From the NCBI GenBank assembly GCA_027576995.1, contig JANBQC010000149.1, forward strand, positions 1-51,426: a stretch of 51,426 nucleotides of DNA. The letters run 5' to 3'. Below the pieces are notes generated by a model. It was not told the origin of the DNA. It saw only the letters and a program-made list of their open reading frames with translations, and searched no databases. A program made the translations under genes and the position numbers. Positions 6,238-44,982 of this stretch are shown piece by piece. This DNA comes from Dimargaris cristalligena (taxonomy: Eukaryota > Kickxellomycota > Dimargaritomycetes > Dimargaritales > Dimargaritaceae). Position 1 is the first letter of the stretch, and the number at the start of each line of letters is the position of its first letter.

Positions 6238-7836
6238 TCCAAGAACCCTTACAAATAATAGCAGGGAATGTATCATATCCCTGCAGCCACTGTAGGCCCA
6301 TTGGTGGCAATACCCCTAACTATCAGTACCTCTGACTCACTAGGCCTTGAGTGTAGATGACTTTATATACACTGTACATCATACTCCACAAGGCTGCTTT
6401 TCTAGGTCTTCAGCCCCACTGCCTTACCCTCCTCTTTTTTACATACCCAAGAATACACTTTAATAAGAGTAAAATGTCTGTGATCTAATTTACATATAGT
6501 ATAGTATTTTGGTTTAACAGTAGGAAGTGCCATGGATTGTTATTGTAGTTACCTCACTACTTGATTTTAGCTTGAGTTTAGGGCTCAACCATTAGCCAGA
6601 ATCCCTGACACTAGGTTAAGGTAGTTAAAGCCAATGTAATTATTACACAATGGCAGTGCTCAACTGGGTGATGTGTATCTGGTTGGTGATATCTCCTACC
6701 CTTATTATTACCATGTCTTCCTACTGCACCTTGGAATAGGCCAACTGGTCAAGTATTGCTGCTGCATCTAGTGATCTACTCCATTGGCTAACCTACGCAA
6801 ATATCCAGGTCCCCCACTCCTCTGGTAGCTCAAGAAGGCCCCCTATTTATTAGGTTAACCATTGTATAACTCTTTATCAACTAAGTTGTCTAATGGGATG
6901 TTCAGAGTGAGGTGGTTTATAAAGATATTCTGCAGCCCGCCTTTGTGGGTATGGTTTTGGCCCCATGATTTGGATACTAATGAAACATGGTTGTTTTAAA
7001 ACTTATAGCTGAAGCAATTTACACAAATGTGGATAGCAGTCTGTGGGGCCATAGCTATTTGGGCATAAGGGGTATCGCCATTGCCCTTGGGGATGTGATA
7101 TTTGTGATTGTACCACCCATTCCAATCACCCTTAAATCATCTTCACTTGTGGAATTGGCCAGGTATCCATCCGTGCTAGCTTATTAAATGAAAGATGTAG
7201 GTTTAGGGCTCTATTTCATGGGTTCCAATGCAGATATCTGGCACCCCGAGAATTTAGTAAGGGTCCGTAGATTGAAATCTATGACTGCAAGCTATAACGG
7301 TATGAAGACTACTCACTCGCACAAGCTTTCATGGAACGGTGTTTGGCATCACCGGGGCCTTAGCTTAGTCTGGGATAGTGTACATTGTCGACAAATCATG
7401 TCGTAGTATCCACCTCTTAAGCCCCTTTGGCTAGCGTAAAAGATATTTGGGCAGCCCCCTTTGCGCCTATGCTCGCTTATAGGAAACCAATACCCACTAC
7501 TCCCCAATTAAGGTGCCCCCCCCCCCCCTGTGGGGACTAACTTGGGGAAAGAGGGGGGTGGAAGTGGCGTAACCTGAATAGGGTAGTCCAGTTGGGTCGC
7601 ACTACCCATTTTTGTTGAATGAGGAGGACCATGCTGAAAGTTCTGTTAAGTCAGCAATACCTGAAATGTGGCGCAGACCTCCTCCACACGGCACCCTCCT
7701 CATTCGTTTGTAACCCAAGTTTTAATCCCGTTTCATAACACCGTCACTTCGGCCGGTGGGGCAATCTCTTGTCGCAATACTCTTTCCCCTTACCTCCCTT
7801 TTCCCAAGCTATTGCCTGTAACGAGCGGTACCAACC
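6238..7836. other. Intergenic; includes a C13 homopolymer and the pantothenate synthetase promoter
   Basis: 6238-7100 is CpG-poor with no credible ORF. A run of 13 C lies at 7516-7528. The last few hundred bases become pyrimidine-rich before the pantothenate synthetase ATG and are the likely promoter and leader. I see no convincing TATA box. Confidence 0.4.
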
Positions 7837-8808
7837 ATGTCCACTACTGGCTCTCCCGTTCTGGTGTTCCACCGTATCGCTGAGTTGCGCGCCTGGCGCC
7901 GGGAGCAAGTCCTCCAGGGCCGGACGATTGGTTTCGTGCCCACCATGGGTGCCCTCCATGAGGGCCACCTGAACCTAGTGCGCGCAGCCCGCTCGTCGTG
8001 CGACCGGGTGGTGGTGAGTATTTTCGTGAATCCGGCCCAGTTCGCCCCCCACGAGGACTTACACGCCTACCCACGCACGCTAGACCGCGATGTGGCCTTA
8101 CTTAGTTCACCACCACCCTCGCCACCCCCGCTCGCGACGGCGGGATCAACGGATTCCCCCGCTTTCGTCTCAGCGTCGGCTTCGGCCCATGTGGTCTTCG
8201 CCCCCACCGTCGCCGAAATGTACCCCAGCGGAATTACCCTGGACGTGCATGCCCAACGGGGCACCTTTGTCGAAGTCTTGGGTAAGTCGCACCAAATGGA
8301 AGGTGGTCCCCGTCCGCATTTCTTCCGGGGGGTGGCCACCGTGGTGTTAAAACTGCTCAATGCGGTCCAACCCGACCGGGCCTATTTCGGCCAAAAGGAC
8401 GCCCAGCAGTGCGTGGTGGTCAAAACCATGGTACGGGACCTCTTGCTGCCCGTGGAAATCGTGACTGGTCCCACCACGCGCGCGGCTAACCAGCTGGCCC
8501 TGAGTAGTCGGAATAAATACTTGAGTCCCGACCAAATACCTGCCGCTTTGACTCTCCAACGGAGTCTGGCCGCAGCGCAAACCCTGTACGAGCAACAGGG
8601 TGAACGGAACCGGGAGGCCCTTTTGGGCGCCGCCCAGCGCGTGTTTGATGACCAGCCGGACGCCCAGTTGGAATACCTCAGCTTGGCTCACCCGGAAACC
8701 CTGGACGAGCTGGAGCAAATCGGTGAGGATGGCGCTATTATATCAGGGGCCTTCCGGGTAGGTAGTGCTCGATTGATCGACAACATTCTACTCGGGTGTA
8801 CTCTCTAG
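7837..8808 (+). CDS. PAN6: Pantothenate synthetase (pantoate--beta-alanine ligase)
   Basis: The enzyme condenses pantoate and beta-alanine with ATP, the last step of pantothenate synthesis that feeds CoA. The single exon encodes 323 residues, near the family length of about 280-310. Diagnostic motifs are PTMGALHEGH at 35-44 (nucleotidyl-transferase HxGH signature), VSIFVNPAQF at 61-70, FGQKDAQQ near 186-193 (ATP and pantoate contacts) and LSSRNKYLSP near 224-233. Residues 91-118 are a Pro/Ser/Ala-rich insert just before the VFAP strand, absent from bacterial enzymes. The usual DG before LALSSRN reads NQ here. The start at 7837 fits the usual short N-terminus. An AATAAA lies at 8942-8947. The gene is convergent with RVB2. 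Identification is secure. Confidence 0.96.
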   Translation: MSTTGSPVLVFHRIAELRAWRREQVLQGRTIGFVPTMGALHEGHLNLVRAARSSCDRVVVSIFVNPAQFAPHEDLHAYPRTLDRDVALLSSPPPSPPPLATAGSTDSPAFVSASASAHVVFAPTVAEMYPSGITLDVHAQRGTFVEVLGKSHQMEGGPRPHFFRGVATVVLKLLNAVQPDRAYFGQKDAQQCVVVKTMVRDLLLPVEIVTGPTTRAANQLALSSRNKYLSPDQIPAALTLQRSLAAAQTLYEQQGERNREALLGAAQRVFDDQPDAQLEYLSLAHPETLDELEQIGEDGAIISGAFRVGSARLIDNILLGCTL

Positions 8809-9138: not shown

Positions 9139-10986
<1,848 letters not shown>

Positions 10987-11852: not shown

Positions 11853-13739
11853 ATGGTTGCTGATCGGTAAGTCTCCTTCCCCTGGTATAACCCCAGACTG
11901 TCTTGTTTTGGTACTATAGTCGAGTTTCTAGATTGAACGAGTGTCGGCTTGGGGTCCATCAGACCCTTATCTTCGGACAAGAGCCCGACTCCCTGTCCCA
12001 TTCGGAGGTACCGGGAGGCCACCTTACATGCTCCTTCCCGTAGTTTCTTCGAGATCAGGGCGCGCCATCGACTGTTTCGGTATACCACCTGTATAGGGTG
12101 ACTGTAGATTCTCCTGTGACTTCTCTTCCAGCCACCCCTAGTATACCATGGATTTCACTGACGTGACTTATTTTTATATATATATAATAATGCATAAATG
12201 ACTACCTAATGCACCAAAACTCGACTCTTCACCATTACGTAGCAAAATCCTGCTCTTGGGCTCCGGCTTCGTGGCTGGCCCCTGCGCCGAGTACCTTGTG
12301 CGTCGCCCCGAAAACAAACTCACTATCGGTAGGTACTCCATCCACTCGAAAGATACTGATGCAACCAAATATATTGCTGAATATTCCACCAGACCCTGTA
12401 TGACCGCCTAACCTCCCTTATTTCTATGTATTTTATCACACCCCCCCGCACGGATACTGTCTACTTCTTAGCGAGCCGTAGCCTAGAAAACGCCCAGGCC
12501 TTGGCCAAACAGTTCCCTCAGGCTACCGCCACTTCATTCGACATCTCGGATGAGGCCGCCTTCGACGCTCTGGTTGCTGACCACGACCTGGTCATCAGTC
12601 TGATCCCCTACACCCAGCACGCCAAGGTGATCAAGTCCGCCATCAAGAGCAAGAAGAACGTAGTTACCACTAGCTACGTCTCTCCCGCCATGATGGAGTA
12701 CGACGCCGCCGCCAAGGATGCCGGCGTGATCGTCATGAACGAAATCGGCCTGGACCCCGGTATCGACCACCTGTACGCCATCAAGACCATCCGTGAAGTG
12801 CAGGCTGAAGGTGGCAAGGTCGTTTCCTTCCTGTCCTACTGCGGTGGTCTGCCAGCCCCCGAGTGCTCCAACAACCCCCTAGGTTACAAATTCAGCTGGT
12901 CCTCCCGTGGTGTGCTCCTGGCCCTCCGCAACACCGCCCGCTACCTCGAAAATGGCGAGGTCGTCGAGGTGTCCGGTAAGGATCTCATGAATTCGGCTAA
13001 ACGTATCCACGTCTATCCCGCCTTCGCCCTGGTAGGTTACGCTAACCGCGACTCCACCCCCTACCCCGAGCGCTACCAGATGCCTGAGGCCCACACTGTG
13101 CTCCGTGGCAGTCTGCGCTACGAGGGTTTCTGCGAGTTCGTCAAGGCCCTGGTCGATCTGGGGTTCCTCGATGACACTGAACGCGATTTCCTGGCCTCCA
13201 GTGCCGCTGATATGCCCTGGAAACAACTTCTGGCCCAGCTCGTCGACATTGATGCCACTAAGCTCAAGACCCTGAGCCAGGAGGATTTCGAAAAGGCCGT
13301 TTCCGACCGTTTCGCCATCGAGGATGCCGGCGAGAAGGAGCGTATCATCCACGGCATGAAGTGGTTGGGTCTGTTCTCCGATAAGCTCATCGCCAAACGT
13401 GGTACCTACCTGGACGTGCTGTGCGCCGCCCTGGAAGACAAGATGATGTACGGACCCAGCGAACGTGACATGATCATCCTTCAGCATCGCTTCGAGTGTG
13501 TGCTGAAGGACGGTACCAAACAGACCCGTACCTCCACCCTGCTCGAATACGGTGAACCCAACGGTGTCATGGCCATGGCCAAGACCGTCGGTGTGCCCTG
13601 TGGTATTGCCGTACAGCTCATTCTTGACGGTAAGATCACCCAAACCGGTGTGATTGCCCCTATGGACCCCGTCATCAACGACCCCATCATGGAACTGCTC
13701 GAGAAGGAGAACATCCACATCATTGAAGAGATCTTGTAA
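11853..13739 (+). CDS. LYS9: Saccharopine dehydrogenase (NADP+, L-glutamate-forming)
   Basis: This enzyme joins alpha-aminoadipate semialdehyde and glutamate into saccharopine, the penultimate step of fungal lysine synthesis. Three exons: 11853-11866 (14 nt), 12243-12328 (86 nt) and 12472-13739, giving 455 aa against 446 in yeast Lys9. Donors are GTAAGT and GTAGGT; the introns are 376 and 143 nt. Exon 2 carries the Rossmann motif LLLGSGFVAGP; the exon 2/3 junction restores TIASRSLENAQ, which matches the family. Further signatures are SLIPYTQH, GLDPGIDHLYA, SYCGGLPAPE and LGYKFSWSSRGVLLALRN. The ATG at 12426 lies inside intron 2, so a single-exon model starting there would lose the NADP-binding loop. 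The upstream TGAGTCA suggests amino-acid control. An AATAAA lies at 13893-13898. Confidence 0.95.
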
Positions 13740-14134: not shown

Positions 14135-17100
14135 TTAGTAGCAATCGAGGATATTATTACCACAGTTTTCGGCTTCAGTTTCCACCATATCCATTTTGAT
14201 TTCCACCGCATCTCCACCGGGCACCCTACCATCCGGACCATCACCCTTGTCGAACCGAAAGTCGGACTCAATGGCCTCATGGTAGAGGTGTTCGCACGAG
14301 GTGGTGGCCCACAATCGATCAAAGTCCATATCCTGAATCTTGCGGTAGAACCGCTGGTGGCAGTTTCGAAGGGCCTCCCCCGTTTGACACCATGTGCACA
14401 CCTCCATCGCATGTTGAGCCTCTCTGGTATTGCCGTTTGCAGCAGCATCATCATCATCATCATCAGCAGCAGTATGTTCCTCAGCGTTCTTATCACTACT
14501 ACTAGGGGTATCTCGCTCCTTGGCAAACGAGCAGCCGTGGAGCCCCTGGGTCGGCGGGGTCGGCTCGCTTGTCGGCGGTGGGGGTTCGGTAGCTGCCGGC
14601 GGACCGGCCAACCAGGTGCCTAATATAGTTTGAAGTCGGTGGAGACAGTGAGCGGCCCGGGCCCGAACAAAACGGGATGAGTCCTGGGTGGCCTGGATGA
14701 GTAGACTGTCAATCCGCAAACAGTAGGGGCAGTGCAGACCCGGTGGGGGATACGGAAGGGTAGACGTTGGTGACGACACAGACTTCCCCGATGCGGACGA
14801 AGTGTCTGTTGGATGCTGGCAGGGCGCCAGGTCAGATGGGGATGGCCAGCGGGGAACAAGGGACTGAAACAGCCGCTCCGATGGACAGTCGTTCGCTGCC
14901 AGTGGTAGGGATGAGGCGTCTGATGTAAATCGGGTATACTGCGTGATGGTTTCTTCGATGGGACCAACAGATATTACGAACCACAATAGATACACGAGTT
15001 GGCAGGCCCGAACTCGAACCTCGTAATCCGAATCATCAATGAGTGAACGTAGCATAGATGGCGTTAAACAGCGAACCACCGGTTGCAGTACAATGAATGG
15101 GGTAATGGCGGGGTACTTCTCGATTAATGTCTGGATCAGGTCTACCGTGGCTCGACGGACAAAGGCTTCACTATCAGTGAGTAAAGTGAACCATGTGGCG
15201 TGATCCCAAGTATCAGCCAGGCGCTGCATTAAGAGGGGGGCGATAGTATTACTACTACTACTATTACTGCTTGAACGGTTCACTGTAGTAGGGGCTGCTG
15301 AATTAAGATCTTGCTCGAATGCTGAACTAGCCGGATGGATCAAGTAAGTCAGTGTATCGAGGGCACTCATACGGGCATACGGCTCGGCGTCCCCGGTCAT
15401 GGCCAGTAGAGGCGACACCAAATCATATTGGGGAATAAGGTAGGCTAAACTACAACTACTAGTCATCTGCTTCCCACTCTCCACTTTGGATCCGGGTGGG
15501 GGAGTAATAAGGAGGATGGGTTCTTCCACCAAACGGCGGATTAAGGTGGCACAGGCATCTTTCATTTCCCAGCGCTCGTCGGCGAATCTAATATGTACGG
15601 ATTCCATAAGGCAGCGCTCGAGAGTTCCGGTTGACTGGTGGGGAGAAGTCGCTACTACGCTGGGATGGCGACGGGCTAAGATGGCAGCGCCCAAAGCGAA
15701 CGCACGCTGGGCCACTAGGCCACAGCACCCCGGCGTTGCACTATCCAGAAGTCGGAGTAGAAAGGCTTCAATCGACGGGTAGAGCGTGCACCGAGGGGCC
15801 CCATCATCAATAGTAGTATCACGTGCCGTTTGCTGCACAATCGAGTCGGCCAGATCAAGCAGTTGGATGGTGACTTGCCGTTCGGGGTGAACCAGTTCAC
15901 TTTGGGCTACCTGTAGAAGATTGGCGAATCGGCTGGCTAAGCCGGGAAATGCCTCTTCCTGAGTTTCGCCGGGCGCACGGGTATGCTCAGTGATAATGGC
16001 CGCCGTGGTAGATACCCAGGCCGTAAAGACACTCCGTTTGGCACCGCGCGACTGTTTGCTATCTTGGAGTTGACTGAGAAGGGCCTTGGCAAGTGGATCC
16101 AGCCCCGAATTAGAGGCGGTGGTTGGGTTACCCGCTGTACCTGCTGCTACCCAGGCAGTAAATCCCTGCTCAACCGTGAGCAGCAAATCGCTCAGCTGAG
16201 ACTGTACCCAAAGTCGGTTGGCCGGATCCGACTGCGTCCGGCTCCATTGGAGACATAGTTTAGCTGCTTCCAGGGCAGTCTGGAACGCCGGGAGTGGGGG
16301 AAGTTCCCCGGCAAGGGTCTTGGTCACCAGGGTATCCCACAGGTAGTGGGAATGGGGCTGTGGATCCGACGACCCCGAGTCAGGGCCACTTTGGAGTAGA
16401 GGAATCAGCCCCGGTTCGTCCTCCGGTATGTCCAGTAAGCTGGTAAGGATGGCCATGAGTTGGCTTCGGTGCATACGTTGGGGGAGTTGGAGCCACCCCT
16501 GCACGGTGGTTGCCCGAAGCAATCCGGCGGTCTGAATAAAGGCCAGGCAGACGTAGTCCCGGGTCGCTGCCAAGGTCCAGATTAATTCGAAAACGTAGGC
16601 CGGGGGTTCGTTCCGGAACCGCTTGATCGCAAAGGGTGAAGTGGTGCGTTCGTCCAGTTCCCTTTGAATGGTGGCGCCTAAATTCGCACGCCACTGGATC
16701 CAACGGGTCGTGGTGGAGGGACCCTCGATATTATCCATACTATTGGATGCCGAAATTTTCTCCATCTGGCTTAAGATGCGCTGAGCTAAGCGACAGGTGG
16801 CTTGGACGGTCTGTTTATGGAAATAGGTTCGCATAGAAAGGCATTGGGTATATTAGGTTAGGTTACTTTCTTCATACCCTAAACCATCTGGTGCCCGCTC
16901 GCATGAATAAAGGGGTCATCAGTGATGGCTAATTGACGGAAATTCTGAGTCCATGGTGTAATCCCGTTTTAATCAAGTAGAATGTACAAATTGTGCTTAC
17001 ATAGAAAGAGGAGTGGCGGAAACCGAACATCATGGCCGGTATACTGGCGTGCCAAGCGCAGAACCTAGTAGGGGATATAATATATGCATGTCATAGATAC

Positions 17101-17860
17101 TCGGTCATTAGAGGTTATCGGAAATCTAGCCGGTTTGGAGGGTAGGTCCCAACCTTTCGTAATCGCCGAATCGTTCAATAGAATTACACGAAATAGCACT
17201 TGGCCCCAAATAACAACCCAATATTAGGCAGATAATTCAATGCGAAAAGACGACCAGTGTACCATTGTAGGGCTGCCGGGTCAATGATCATGTCAGCCAA
17301 TGCCTGAAGGCAAGCGTAGCGGACTCGGGGTGATGTAACCGAACCGGCCAGTTGCTCGCTAAAGAACTGAAATAGCTGGGGCACTCGTTCCCGCAATGAT
17401 GGAAATACGGACGGGGCCTCGGTTCGGGTAGCCGCGCCGACCAATTGTCCGACGAAGCGTAGGGCCACGCTCCAAATACGCTCATCTTTTTGCCCGGTTA
17501 TGCATTCCTGGACCATGGTAAGGTGTGTTTTTACGCACGGGAAATCAAGCAAGCCTATCGATTAGTGAGTGGCCCGGTGTAATATTGGTGTAATTGATAA
17601 TATACAATTGGGCGGCTGGTTTTCAGCGAGTCAACTGGGCGTAGGGGAATAGTGCAGCAGTGGTGCGGAGAGGAGGAGCTTACCTGGCACCAGTCGAGAG
17701 GGGCCTCATCGGCCAACCACTCGCCAAGGACGGGGGCCTGCTGGATATCGGAGGTGAGGTACGACAGGATCTTCTCGTGGCGGGCATCGTCGACGATATT
17801 AGGGGACATATGCCAGAGTCGTTTTAGGACTTGGCGACGGCTGGGAAGGGACAGGGCCAT
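14135..17860 (-). CDS. BRAT1-like HEAT-repeat protein with C-terminal Asp-Cys-Tyr tail
   Basis: The predicted protein is 1056 aa from three exons: 17860-17684, 17507-17190 and 16810-14135. Introns are 176 and 379 nt, both phase 0; the second uses a weak GTGTAA donor. It resembles animal BRAT1 (821 aa in human), a scaffold linked to ATM/PIKK signalling and to the INTS9-INTS11 endonuclease. Support: an N-terminal VDDARHEKIL block; an ungapped fit at both exon joins against the recalled human protein; WEMKDA, SEAFVRRA and DYEVRVRA HEAT helices in the right order; and a chain ending ILDCY, like the BRAT1 terminus. A CxxC (CPYC) and an acidic Asp run (about 948-953) precede the tail domain. An alternative exon-2 acceptor at 17555 breaks frame. 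The orthology is inferred from memory of the family. Confidence 0.72.
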
Positions 17861-18287: not shown

Positions 18288-19925
18288 ATGGCTTCCCACC
18301 AAGTTGAAGTGAAGGACTCCGACCTCAGCCTTAAACTCGTCATTGGCTACCTCGGGGATGCCCTCAAGGAAGTCGACGTCCAGACCGCTTCGGTGGAGCA
18401 CGATGTAAGTAGCAGTGATATCTGGGTGGGAAGTGCCCCGGGGAACTGGAATGTAAGGGAATGAGAATTTCACGCTGCCAGCTAAGCCAACGGTAAAAGA
18501 CTGCTAGCTCTATATATTGCGCAAGATTCACCTTGACCAGTCCATTCCAATCGCATAGTACTTAAACGGTTTCAGCCGAAGCCCACCGATTCACCCCATA
18601 GCGCTTAATCTCAAGGCTTAGGTTGAGCCCCGAAGCCTCCACCAATCCCCCGGGTCTTTGAATCTCCGTTCATTTTATTTTTAAAAAATTGATTTCCTCA
18701 TTCCTCATTCCTCCTACCTATCCTATTATATCCCTATTTCAATATGTTTGCCCTCCATCGTGGCCTCGCCCACCTATCCATTTCCCCTACCCGTGCCGTG
18801 ACCCGTCAGCTCTCTAAGCTCACCATCGGTTCCGGTGAGACTGTCGAGGGGGCCGATGCCCTGGCCTTGTACCTGTGCGAGAAAGCCGGGCTCCTTGACC
18901 TTCTGGGCCGCACCGACGTCGAAAGTGCTCTCGTGCACCAGTGGGTGACTGCCTCCGCCCGTAGCCGCAACGCCGCTGATCGTACCCTGTACGCCCAGGA
19001 GGCCAACGACGAACTGGCCAATAACACCTACCTGGTCAACAACTCTTTTTCCGTGGCCGATATTATCGCTTTTGCCAACATCCACGCCTGGATCGCCGCC
19101 CTCTCCCGCCCCAAGCAAATCACCTTCTGCAACCTCGTCCGTTGGTTTGATCTCATCCAACACTCCATTCCCGAGGCCGTCCTGAAGAGTGTGGGTCTAA
19201 GCCAGGTCCCAATTGATCTCAACGCCCCCAAGGAAAACGCTGCCCCTGCCGCCGAATCTGCCAAGTCGGATAACAAGACCACCGCCGCCGCCTCGACTCC
19301 TGCTGCCGACGGTGCTGCCGCTGGTGACAAGAAGCAGAGCAAAAAGGAAAAGAAGGCCAAGGGCGAGGGGTCCGCTAAGCCCAAGGCTAAGCCGGCCAAC
19401 GAACCCAAGCCCATTGTGCCCTCCCAGATCGACCTCCGGGTGGGTAAGATTATTGAATGTGGAAAGCACCCCGATGCCGATTCCCTTTACGTCGAAAAGA
19501 TTGACCTGGGCGAGGAGGAACCCCGTACCGTTGTGTCGGGTCTGGTCAAATTCATTCCCCTGGAGAACATGCAGGGTCGGGAGGTGGTGTGCGTGTGCAA
19601 CTTGAAGCCCGTGGCTATGCGCGGTGTCAAGTCGTTCGCCATGGTGCTCTGCGCTTCGTCGGCCGACGGTAACACCGTGGAATTCGTCGAACCCCCCCAG
19701 GGTAGCCAACCCGGCCAAAAGGTCTACTTCGAAGGATTCGCCACCGGTGAACCCGAGGCCGTGCTTAACCCCAAGAAGAAGATCTGGGAAACCATCCAGC
19801 CCGGCCTTCTCACTGATGAATCCCGCCAGGCCCTGTACCAGAGCCCCGAGGGTGTCGCTCATTTGCTCAAGACTGACGCCGGTATCTGTACCGTCAAGAG
19901 CGTAACTAAGGGAACCATTAAATAA
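18288..19925 (+). CDS. ARC1: Arc1/AIMP1-type aminoacyl-tRNA synthetase cofactor
   Basis: Yeast Arc1p holds cytosolic GluRS and MetRS in a complex and delivers tRNA to them. Two exons, 18288-18404 (39 codons) and 18810-19925, encode 410 aa; yeast Arc1p has 376. Residues 1-170 form a GST-C-like domain including GSGETVEGADALALYL. Residues 180-240 are an Ala- then Lys-rich linker, like the basic tRNA-contacting middle domain. Residues 241-410 are the EMAP-II/tRBD OB-fold, with IDLRVGKIIECGKHPDADSLYVE at its start and the extended C-terminal part. The 405-nt intron has GTAAGT and TCAG borders in phase 0. An in-frame ATG inside the intron (18744) could give an alternative N-terminus. An AATAAA lies at 20043-20048. 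Confidence 0.9.
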
Positions 19926-42163: not shown

Positions 42164-44752
42164 TCAGCGACTAAGCTTGAATGTGGGTGACTGCCAAATA
42201 ATAAAATCGCTATCTTTGCGGGAGGCATAATCGGCCAGAGGTCGCTTCCACTGAACCCGGAATTGGTAGGAACCGTTGGGGGCGGCGGTGAGCGAGTCAG
42301 CACCACCATTGCTAGCCGTTTTAACCATGTTGCCGGACCATACGAAATTGCGGAAGTCCGAGCCAGGTATAAAACTGTGGGCCAAAAACGACTGTTGCCC
42401 CTGGTCCACTAGGTAGCGCGGTTGGCTCGTTTGATCCACCCGTACCACATAAATGAGCAGCAGATCGGTGGTAAACTGGAGGAAATACTGGAACGCCGGG
42501 TATTTCTTCTTAGATAGCTGATATGTGGTCTGCGTAGATGCCGGAATTGCGCTCAACGAAACGGAATCAATGAGCTGGGGGTAGTATGTGGTGGTGCTCG
42601 GTGGTACAATGGGAATTTGGGAAAAGTTGTCGTCCATGGCCAGGAAAGGGAAGGTGAACCGGATTGACCGGGTACCGCTAAGGAAGTTAAACGTAATATA
42701 CCCTCCATAGATCCATTGTCTCGGCGCCATATCGTTGAGGGTGAGGGTCATACGGTGAGTAAAGTTCGAATTAGGCGTGGTCCAAGTAGGAAGGGGCTCG
42801 ATATTTTTAGGCGTAAAGGTCCCGTTAACGCGAAGGCGTGGCGCGATGAGGGTTCCGCTAGGGGTGAACATGGTGACGTCCTCGGAGGTGAGCCAGCCCC
42901 ATGAAGTCAGGTATTTTGCATATGAATCGACCTTGAATTGAATTTCAAAATTGAAGTTCTTTCCGTTATCCACATTTTGGTTATCGCCCAGACTAGAGTT
43001 GTAGGAAAAGAAAAAATCGGGCGAATTAAAGACATTCTGCATTTGGAGGGCCCCGTAGCCTTGTTGCACTGGTGAGCAGTGTAAATTGGTATACCGCGAA
43101 GGTTGCAGGTCCTGTTTCGGCAGCAACATCATGACGTATTGCTCACTAGTCAACTTAGGGTTAAACTCCCGCAGGAGAGCAAATGCCCCCGTAACGAACG
43201 CGCTCGACATGGCCGTGCCGGTAGCGATCCCGTAGCTGCCCATTTCGAGTGGTAGGGCTGAATAGATGTAACGACCCGGAGCAATGAGATTGGGTTTGAG
43301 TGATAAATCGGGACCGGGTCCCCAGGACGAGAAGTCGGATACACCAACTTTTTCCGTTTGCTTACGAGCAGTCATATTGTCGTCGCTCGAAATGATTACT
43401 TGTTGACCGGATTGGAGGGCGGAAAGAAGAAATGTGCCAGCGGAGTACTCAACCATCACCGTTGGGATAAGGCCCTTGCTCTTAAAGGCTGGGATATCGA
43501 TGACTTTCCAGGTGACGTCGTACACAATCAAGGCAACTGCCCCGGCCGCCTGCGCATTGGCCGCTTTGGTTTCGATGGAGCAAACGCCGTTTTGGGCCAG
43601 AGCAATTTTTCCATTCACGTTCGCCGTAATGGGGCGACAGCCGACCCACGCATTTTGGGCGTCTGTGGCCAGAACCAGGGTTTGCTTACTGAAGTTAAAG
43701 GCCAGCTCGGGGGACTGGGTGTACGACCGGGGGAAGTTTTTACCGGGGGTACTATCCACATTGATAGACTTGGAGTAAAAGGAGGGTTGGTCGAAACTTC
43801 CAACGGCCACTGCACCGGTTCCCACCCCGGGTGAGTTGACGGTGAACAGGGAGTATTGACCTTCATCTCCAGCCGCGGCAACAACAATCACCCCCTTGCT
43901 GGTCATCTGAGTCGCCATGCGCGACAAAAGGGAATTCGGCGAGCCTGCCGAAACGCCGAGGGACACGTTAATGATGTTCATACCGTCAGTGTAGGCCATC
44001 TCCATTGCCGCCATCAGAAGATCGACTGTGGTCGAACCCCCACAGCCTATGGCCCTATAGGCGCCAATTTGGGCTTGGGGAGCGGCGCCCTGGAACACGC
44101 CAACATTGCCCGCTGCGATACCGGACACATGGGTGCCGTGACCATTGCATTTATCCAAAGGGTCCTTGTCCGGCTTAGGGGTGTTGTATCCGGTGAATTG
44201 ATCGCCAACAAAGTCATAGCCGGCAACCACCCGGGCCCCACTGCAGGTCTTGAAACAGCCACCGAACATCGGATGGCGGTAGTCCAGGCCGCTGTCCACG
44301 AACCCAATTTTAACGCCCCGACCGTAAAGATTTTTTTCAATCTGGGTTTCCACGATGTAGTTATCTTTGAGATAGACATTTTCCTTCGGTTCGAGTGTCA
44401 AGCCCGGAATGGTCGAGGCGTGGATGGTGGTCGATTGGTTTAGGACTTGGTTGGGGGACATGTTCAAGACGATGGAGAGCTTTTGGGCCATGGCGGAATA
44501 CTTGTCGTCCAGTTTAATATGTGCGCCTTTTACGACCGTAGTGTAGTTCCTGGCAAACGTGAAAGGGACTTTCAACTTGGCCATTTGTGAAGAAAACAGC
44601 TCGAATGGTTCGGTACCGGTGGCTTGGCTGGCATCGCTAGTGTCGAACTGAACCAGGTAGGACCCCGATATGACGCTCTCACCGGAACAGCCCGAATTAG
44701 CGGTTAGGACCGCCAACGAAAGGAGCCCCCAGAGGCTCAGTGAGCGATGCAT
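42164..44752 (-). CDS. Secreted subtilase-family (S8A, Vpr-like) protein, predicted catalytically dead
   Basis: The single exon encodes 862 aa. Residues 1-23 form a signal peptide, followed by a propeptide with an I9-like region (about 30-115). The peptidase fold follows: catalytic Asp153 in FVDSGLD and His205 in GHGTHVSG are intact. The oxyanion position reads AAAGDEG with Asp296 instead of Asn. The serine motif, normally GTSMASP, reads GTAMSSA at 512-518, so the nucleophile is Ala514 (codon GCC). A PA domain (about 380-455, QAAGAVALIVYD) is inserted between His and Ser as in Vpr-type proteases, and a beta-rich Fn3-like C-terminal half follows. Several NxS/T sites suit secretion. Intact frame and good codon use argue for a maintained pseudoprotease rather than a pseudogene. 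TATATAAATA lies 230 nt upstream. Confidence 0.9.
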   Translation of the reverse strand: MHRSLSLWGLLSLAVLTANSGCSGESVISGSYLVQFDTSDASQATGTEPFELFSSQMAKLKVPFTFARNYTTVVKGAHIKLDDKYSAMAQKLSIVLNMSPNQVLNQSTTIHASTIPGLTLEPKENVYLKDNYIVETQIEKNLYGRGVKIGFVDSGLDYRHPMFGGCFKTCSGARVVAGYDFVGDQFTGYNTPKPDKDPLDKCNGHGTHVSGIAAGNVGVFQGAAPQAQIGAYRAIGCGGSTTVDLLMAAMEMAYTDGMNIINVSLGVSAGSPNSLLSRMATQMTSKGVIVVAAAGDEGQYSLFTVNSPGVGTGAVAVGSFDQPSFYSKSINVDSTPGKNFPRSYTQSPELAFNFSKQTLVLATDAQNAWVGCRPITANVNGKIALAQNGVCSIETKAANAQAAGAVALIVYDVTWKVIDIPAFKSKGLIPTVMVEYSAGTFLLSALQSGQQVIISSDDNMTARKQTEKVGVSDFSSWGPGPDLSLKPNLIAPGRYIYSALPLEMGSYGIATGTAMSSAFVTGAFALLREFNPKLTSEQYVMMLLPKQDLQPSRYTNLHCSPVQQGYGALQMQNVFNSPDFFFSYNSSLGDNQNVDNGKNFNFEIQFKVDSYAKYLTSWGWLTSEDVTMFTPSGTLIAPRLRVNGTFTPKNIEPLPTWTTPNSNFTHRMTLTLNDMAPRQWIYGGYITFNFLSGTRSIRFTFPFLAMDDNFSQIPIVPPSTTTYYPQLIDSVSLSAIPASTQTTYQLSKKKYPAFQYFLQFTTDLLLIYVVRVDQTSQPRYLVDQGQQSFLAHSFIPGSDFRNFVWSGNMVKTASNGGADSLTAAPNGSYQFRVQWKRPLADYASRKDSDFIIWQSPTFKLSR

Positions 44753-44982
44753 GGTGTCGTAGCGTTTGGATTCAAGGTGAATAATTGGGTGACGGTGATT
44801 CCGGATGGCTTTAGAGGACTAATGATACCCGCGCGGTCAACAGCAGCGGATACAAGAAGTGTGACAGAAATATGGCAATGAAATAAGAGATCTCGGGTTA
44901 AAGAGAATATGTAACAATGTATTAAACTAGTAAACCGATTAGTAGTGGCGATATTGAGTCAATGGATAGTGGAATGTCCACG

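Follow-up and report, generated by a model that had tools for sequence, protein, structure and literature searches.

Closest described systems

The BRAT1 family, and the mechanism by which its members cap an RNA endonuclease, are already known from animals. Lin et al. reportedly found in 2024 that the BRAT1 tail lies inside the INTS11 active site, with a cysteine on the metal ions, and a paper by Sabath et al. from the same year is said to present a BRAT1-INTS11 structure; WDR73 is the other assembly factor in animals. According to two reports, animal BRAT1 binds the INTS9-INTS11 dimer, and loss of BRAT1 leads to lower INTS11 levels (PMC9418311, PMC13335351). UBE3D, with its yeast counterpart Ipa1, is a partner of CPSF73 that works like BRAT1 in animals by bringing a cysteine to a nuclease active site: PMC11904178 places the conserved Cys144 of UBE3D within the active site of CPSF3, where it is able to coordinate metal ions. 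UBE3D/Ipa1 nevertheless constitutes a separate Pfam family (HECT_2), and its cysteine is internal, whereas that of BRAT1 stands in a C-terminal Asp-Cys-Tyr (DCY). Integrator itself was described as restricted to metazoans in a 2022 review (PMC9006982). Here, we report a BRAT1 homologue in the fungus Dimargaris cristalligena (Kickxellomycota, Dimargaritales), whose gene lies on the minus strand at positions 17860-14135 of contig C149; the window, i.e., the whole stretch of DNA that was analyzed, is 51,426 nucleotides long.

Gene structure of the BRAT1 homologue

The reading frame opens with an ATG at 17860 and closes with GAT TGC TAC TAA, with the stop codon at 14135-14137, to give a product that terminates in CGNNILDCY. 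An earlier note on this DNA had placed a gene ending in ILDCY here, and both its frame and its stop were borne out on the minus strand. The GenBank protein H4R33_002806 (P0001; 1053 amino acids [aa]) maps exactly onto four minus-strand exons, all of whose introns are of the GT...AG type. These are exon 1 (17684..17860; 59 codons, donor GTAAGC); exon 2 (17263..17507; acceptor CCAG, donor GTACAC), which encodes part of the N-terminal HEAT region and matches P0001 exactly; exon 3 (17001..17064; 64 bases, acceptor CTAG, donor GTAAGC); and exon 4 (14135..16810), which encodes the remaining HEAT solenoid, a low-confidence linker, and the C-terminal tail and includes the stop codon. On the same strand, 14138..14161 encodes the C-terminal octapeptide GNNILDCY, which includes the Asp-Cys-Tyr end. 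The length of 1056 aa given in the earlier note equals that of a three-exon model that lacks exon 3 and makes a wrong join around it. We prefer the four-exon model because the 64-base exon 3 encodes a peptide, WFCAWHASIPAMMFGFRHSSFYTVQATC, that aligns to WFFNWSDSLQAVTLSLSDRSCYTTQATC of the Tieghemiomyces protein P0036; the tail is identical in both models.

Fungal relatives and homology to BRAT1

A protein search seeded with the C-terminal part of P0001 recovered two proteins and linked it to the Actinomortierella protein P0002 (E = 1.3e-9), and a search with the Actinomortierella protein as the query then surfaced the wider family. Its members come from Dimargaritales, including Tieghemiomyces, from Calcarisporiella, and from many Mortierellomycotina; no member from Dikarya, Mucorales, Glomeromycotina, or chytrids was present among the 7994 scored candidates, which were those sharing the most words with the query. 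Several of the Mortierellomycotina proteins, which show 22-25% identity to the Dimargaris protein, have already been automatically named BRAT1 or "BRCA1-associated ATM activator 1" in GenBank. Our collection comprised 37 proteins, 36 of them fungal and one a fish BRAT1. A tree was built from 29 of the 37, with P0009, P0011, P0016, P0020, P0024, P0032, P0033, and P0034 omitted because they were short or truncated or closely resembled other sequences; since its outer branches reach extreme lengths (3.4 to 10 changes per column) and it is rooted at the midpoint, it says little on horizontal transfer from animals.

The Dimargaris protein is a homologue of BRAT1, as the earlier note had proposed. 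A profile built exclusively from fungal sequences (23 of the 36) recovered human BRAT1 as its top match in the Protein Data Bank (PDB), with an E value of 2.7e-17, and fish BRAT1 was reached from P0002 at 6.7e-4. Alignment with the fish protein revealed a common N-terminal block and common HEAT motifs. The description of the product as a HEAT protein likewise held, in that Pfam returned HEAT-type families and nothing else, and the AlphaFold2 model (mean predicted local distance difference test [pLDDT] score, 70.2) displays a BRAT1-like solenoid. When this model was compared with structures by VIA-align (934 chains aligned), the best four entries were BRAT1/CG7044, and the HEAT solenoid of animal BRAT1 (human, and Drosophila CG7044) was matched along nearly its whole length. 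The VIA-align and Foldseek lists also contain other HEAT families, all ranked below BRAT1, a position that makes them less likely without dismissing them.

The Asp-Cys-Tyr tail

DCY forms the exact C terminus of 30 of the 37 proteins (29 of the 36 fungal ones and the fish BRAT1), while a further 3 end in DCYA and the remaining 4 in other ways; the DCY tail is conserved in relatives, a point that the earlier note had asked to be checked. Human BRAT1 also ends in DCY (residues 819-821; PDB 8uib_T). The BRAT1-named proteins of Mortierellomycotina resemble the Dimargaris protein in ending in N-(I/V)-L-D-C-Y wherever their C terminus is complete, with three Podila proteins (P0022, P0023, and P0026) carrying one residue past it, the alanine of DCYA; DCY itself is terminal in P0025 of P. 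verticillata and in P0017 of P. epigama. Two of the four other endings belong to proteins labeled partial (P0032 and P0034), and the other two (P0024 and P0033) diverge directly upstream of the tail.

The composition-based probability of an exact DCY end arising by chance is 2e-5 to 3e-5. In the 23-sequence fungal alignment, only 8 of the 1046 eight-residue windows surpass the last one in conservation. The Dimargaris and Tieghemiomyces proteins, which are 35% identical overall, agree at 8/8 of their last eight positions, and just 2 eight-residue windows are fully identical in this pair. A 14-row alignment that includes the fish sequence has invariant D, C, and Y, together with an Arg-Leu pair upstream. 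Given these low odds and the high rank of the tail among the conserved windows, including its conservation in relatives, we rejected a chance origin. In the predicted model, residues 1002-1053 have pLDDT values of <50, as in a flexible arm.

As a side observation, the divergence of P0024 and P0033, both from Mortierellomycotina, sets in after ...ND and before GNN(V/I)LDCY, which resembles a short last exon overlooked in annotation. For P0024, the last exon was likely missed, because a record from the same species (P0013) ends in DCY.

Integrator subunits and nucleases in the Dimargaris genome

The assembly searched measures 27.1 Mb in 779 contigs. Genome searches scored the best candidates only and read exons separately, so that the absence of a gene from the assembly is unproved. 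Parts of Integrator persist in Dimargaris cristalligena. A single open frame of 1117 codons matches the INTS2 family PF14750 (E = 1.4e-86 at C291:14599-17067), and Integrator complex subunit 2 is the sole PDB match of its product (8.8e-36). An INTS3 gene is indicated by five matched pieces at C288:19198-21040, which correspond to the N-terminal region of the family (PF10189; E = 5.9e-43), and its identity is backed both by Pfam and by a PDB match to INTS3 (3.4e-35); by itself, this protein could be a member of Integrator or of an SOSS-like complex. The earlier note had proposed that this lineage kept an INTS11-BRAT1 module or, as a second option, uses the tail on CPSF73. INTS2 and INTS3 persist, but no INTS11-BRAT1 module is shown by the data: INTS11 and INTS9 were both searched for, and neither was found in the assembly.

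Searches with the metallo-beta-lactamase (MBL) and beta-CASP families recovered only two genes. The first (C146) encodes CPSF73, with 467 bits to CPSF73 versus 223 to INTS11 and with HFHLDH present; the second (C231) encodes CPSF100 and has HPTVEH at the HxHxDH position, which leaves CPSF73 as the sole beta-CASP gene found with this motif intact. Run against the assembly, a human INTS11 query matched only CPSF73 and CPSF100 (E <= 10), and a human INTS9 query matched only CPSF73. A HECT_2 gene of the UBE3D/Ipa1 type was located at C41:73328-74071, matched across the first half of the profile. As a gauge of completeness, we counted CCT plus HSP60 loci (8 of 9 expected, after exclusion of a 2229-codon frame on C290 that is probably Fab1-like) and proteasome loci (12 of 14 expected), the expected numbers being general knowledge. 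From these 20 of 23 loci, the probability that chance alone would leave a pair of unlinked genes out of the assembly is about 1.7% (range, 0.1-11%); an assembly gap is a possible cause of the undetected INTS11 and INTS9.

Proposed function and alternative explanations

We regard it as probable that the gene encodes a fungal BRAT1 orthologue acting as a nuclease-capping assembly chaperone of an MBL/beta-CASP enzyme, with Integrator as the destination. Strict orthology, binding, capping, chaperone function, and release are what we infer here, with capping carried over from animals. The protein would consist of a HEAT-repeat scaffold and a flexible C-terminal linker ending in Asp-Cys-Tyr and would bind a newly made MBL/beta-CASP RNA endonuclease; the tail would thread into the active site of this enzyme, where its cysteine would hold the metal ions. 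The capped endonuclease would stay stable and silent until it is released upon assembly into a fungal Integrator. Nuclease capping during assembly is the best reading because the fungal protein shares both the scaffold and the tail of animal BRAT1. We know of no role of INTS2 outside Integrator, and the presence of its gene therefore argues that Integrator exists here to be assembled. As to the client, there is roughly an even chance that it is INTS11, with its gene missing from the assembly. CPSF73 is a tentative candidate for the same place, weighed down somewhat by the coexistence of a UBE3D-type gene with that of CPSF73, and it is unlikely that another metallo-nuclease is the client or that there is no active-site client.

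Several observations weigh against this reading. INTS11 and INTS9, the animal BRAT1 clients, are the very subunits that went unrecovered, and the INTS1 (RPB2-binding part), INTS5, and INTS13 families were unmatched in the assembly, in searches run without a positive control. A single-sequence PDB search with the Dimargaris protein gave no BRAT1 match, so that the link to BRAT1 depends on its relatives, and the structural matches to BRAT1 show just 12-16% sequence identity, with longer low-confidence inserts than in the animal proteins. The DCYA ends of Podila may mean that the exact C-terminal carboxylate is dispensable or that capping differs there.

A client switch between paralogous RNA endonucleases would account for part of this pattern: INTS9 and INTS11 would have been lost, CPSF73 would serve as the Integrator-like nuclease, and BRAT1 would cap CPSF73 beside or instead of UBE3D. 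The recovery of CPSF73 and CPSF100 as the only beta-CASP proteins and the low joint probability of two chance absences favor such a switch, as does the precedent of Arabidopsis, where CPSF73-I cooperates with proteins resembling INTS3, INTS4, and INTS9 to process small nuclear RNAs (snRNAs) (PMC5079582). However, according to the same paper, plants retain an INTS9-like protein, and none was found in Dimargaris; the fungus has a UBE3D-type gene, and UBE3D is a known partner of CPSF73 in animals; losing both genes yet retaining INTS2, INTS3, and BRAT1 would be unusual; and best-candidate, exon-by-exon searches fall short of proving that INTS9 and INTS11 are absent. We consider the switch possible but rather unlikely.

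Alternatively, the protein might be a BRAT1 orthologue whose nuclease role was lost along with INTS11 and which acts via other partners of animal BRAT1, such as DNA-damage kinases. To judge from reference titles in PMC9418311, the original description of BRAT1 was of a protein associated with BRCA1/ATM, and INTS3 also belongs to the SOSS DNA-damage complex (PMC9006982). Against this, INTS2 is present, and few stretches of the protein are as conserved as the tail with its cysteine, a sign that the nuclease-capping end is under constraint; we judge such a role improbable. More remote still is a HEAT protein with a function unrelated to BRAT1, in which the likeness of tail and repeats would be due to chance or convergence. 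HEAT repeats do match many proteins, as is seen in the purely HEAT-type Pfam result and in the 189 PDB chains that match the model at E <= 0.001. We rejected generic HEAT similarity, however, since BRAT1 is the top match of the sequence profile and of both structure comparisons, almost over the full length, and 33 of the 37 proteins carry DCY either as their very end or followed by a single residue.

Neighboring genes

The gene is flanked on one side by a saccharopine dehydrogenase gene (window positions 12381-13736, plus strand) and on the other by a gene for an Arc1p-like/tRNA-binding cofactor (18693-19922, plus strand). Pfam further identified a pantoate-beta-alanine ligase of the panC type (7822-8805, plus strand; 8.6e-96), a RuvB-like (TIP49) helicase gene in two large frames (9142-10986, minus strand), and a large subtilase (S8) with a PA domain (42167-44818, minus strand). 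The subtilase has an apparent signal peptide by eye and is possibly a secreted protease. Pfam scans of eight large frames in the window turned up no Integrator subunit.

Implications

Among the literature matches listed, which cover the literature in part and include few subscription papers, none had a title dealing with BRAT1 or Integrator in fungi. The INTS2 and INTS3 genes of this fungus run counter to the view of Integrator as metazoan-only expressed in PMC9006982, as the plant proteins reported in PMC5079582 already did. The occurrence of BRAT1, INTS2, and INTS3 together in one fungus suggests that Integrator and its tail-bearing chaperone are as old as the ancestor shared by animals and fungi, or older, barring a transfer. 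Fungi with BRAT1 offer a setting in which to ask whether BRAT1 requires INTS11, and the DCYA proteins of Podila are natural tests of the requirement for the terminal carboxylate. Human BRAT1 is a disease protein; conservation of the tail between fungus and human marks the Asp-Cys-Tyr end as constrained and may aid the reading of human BRAT1 variants.
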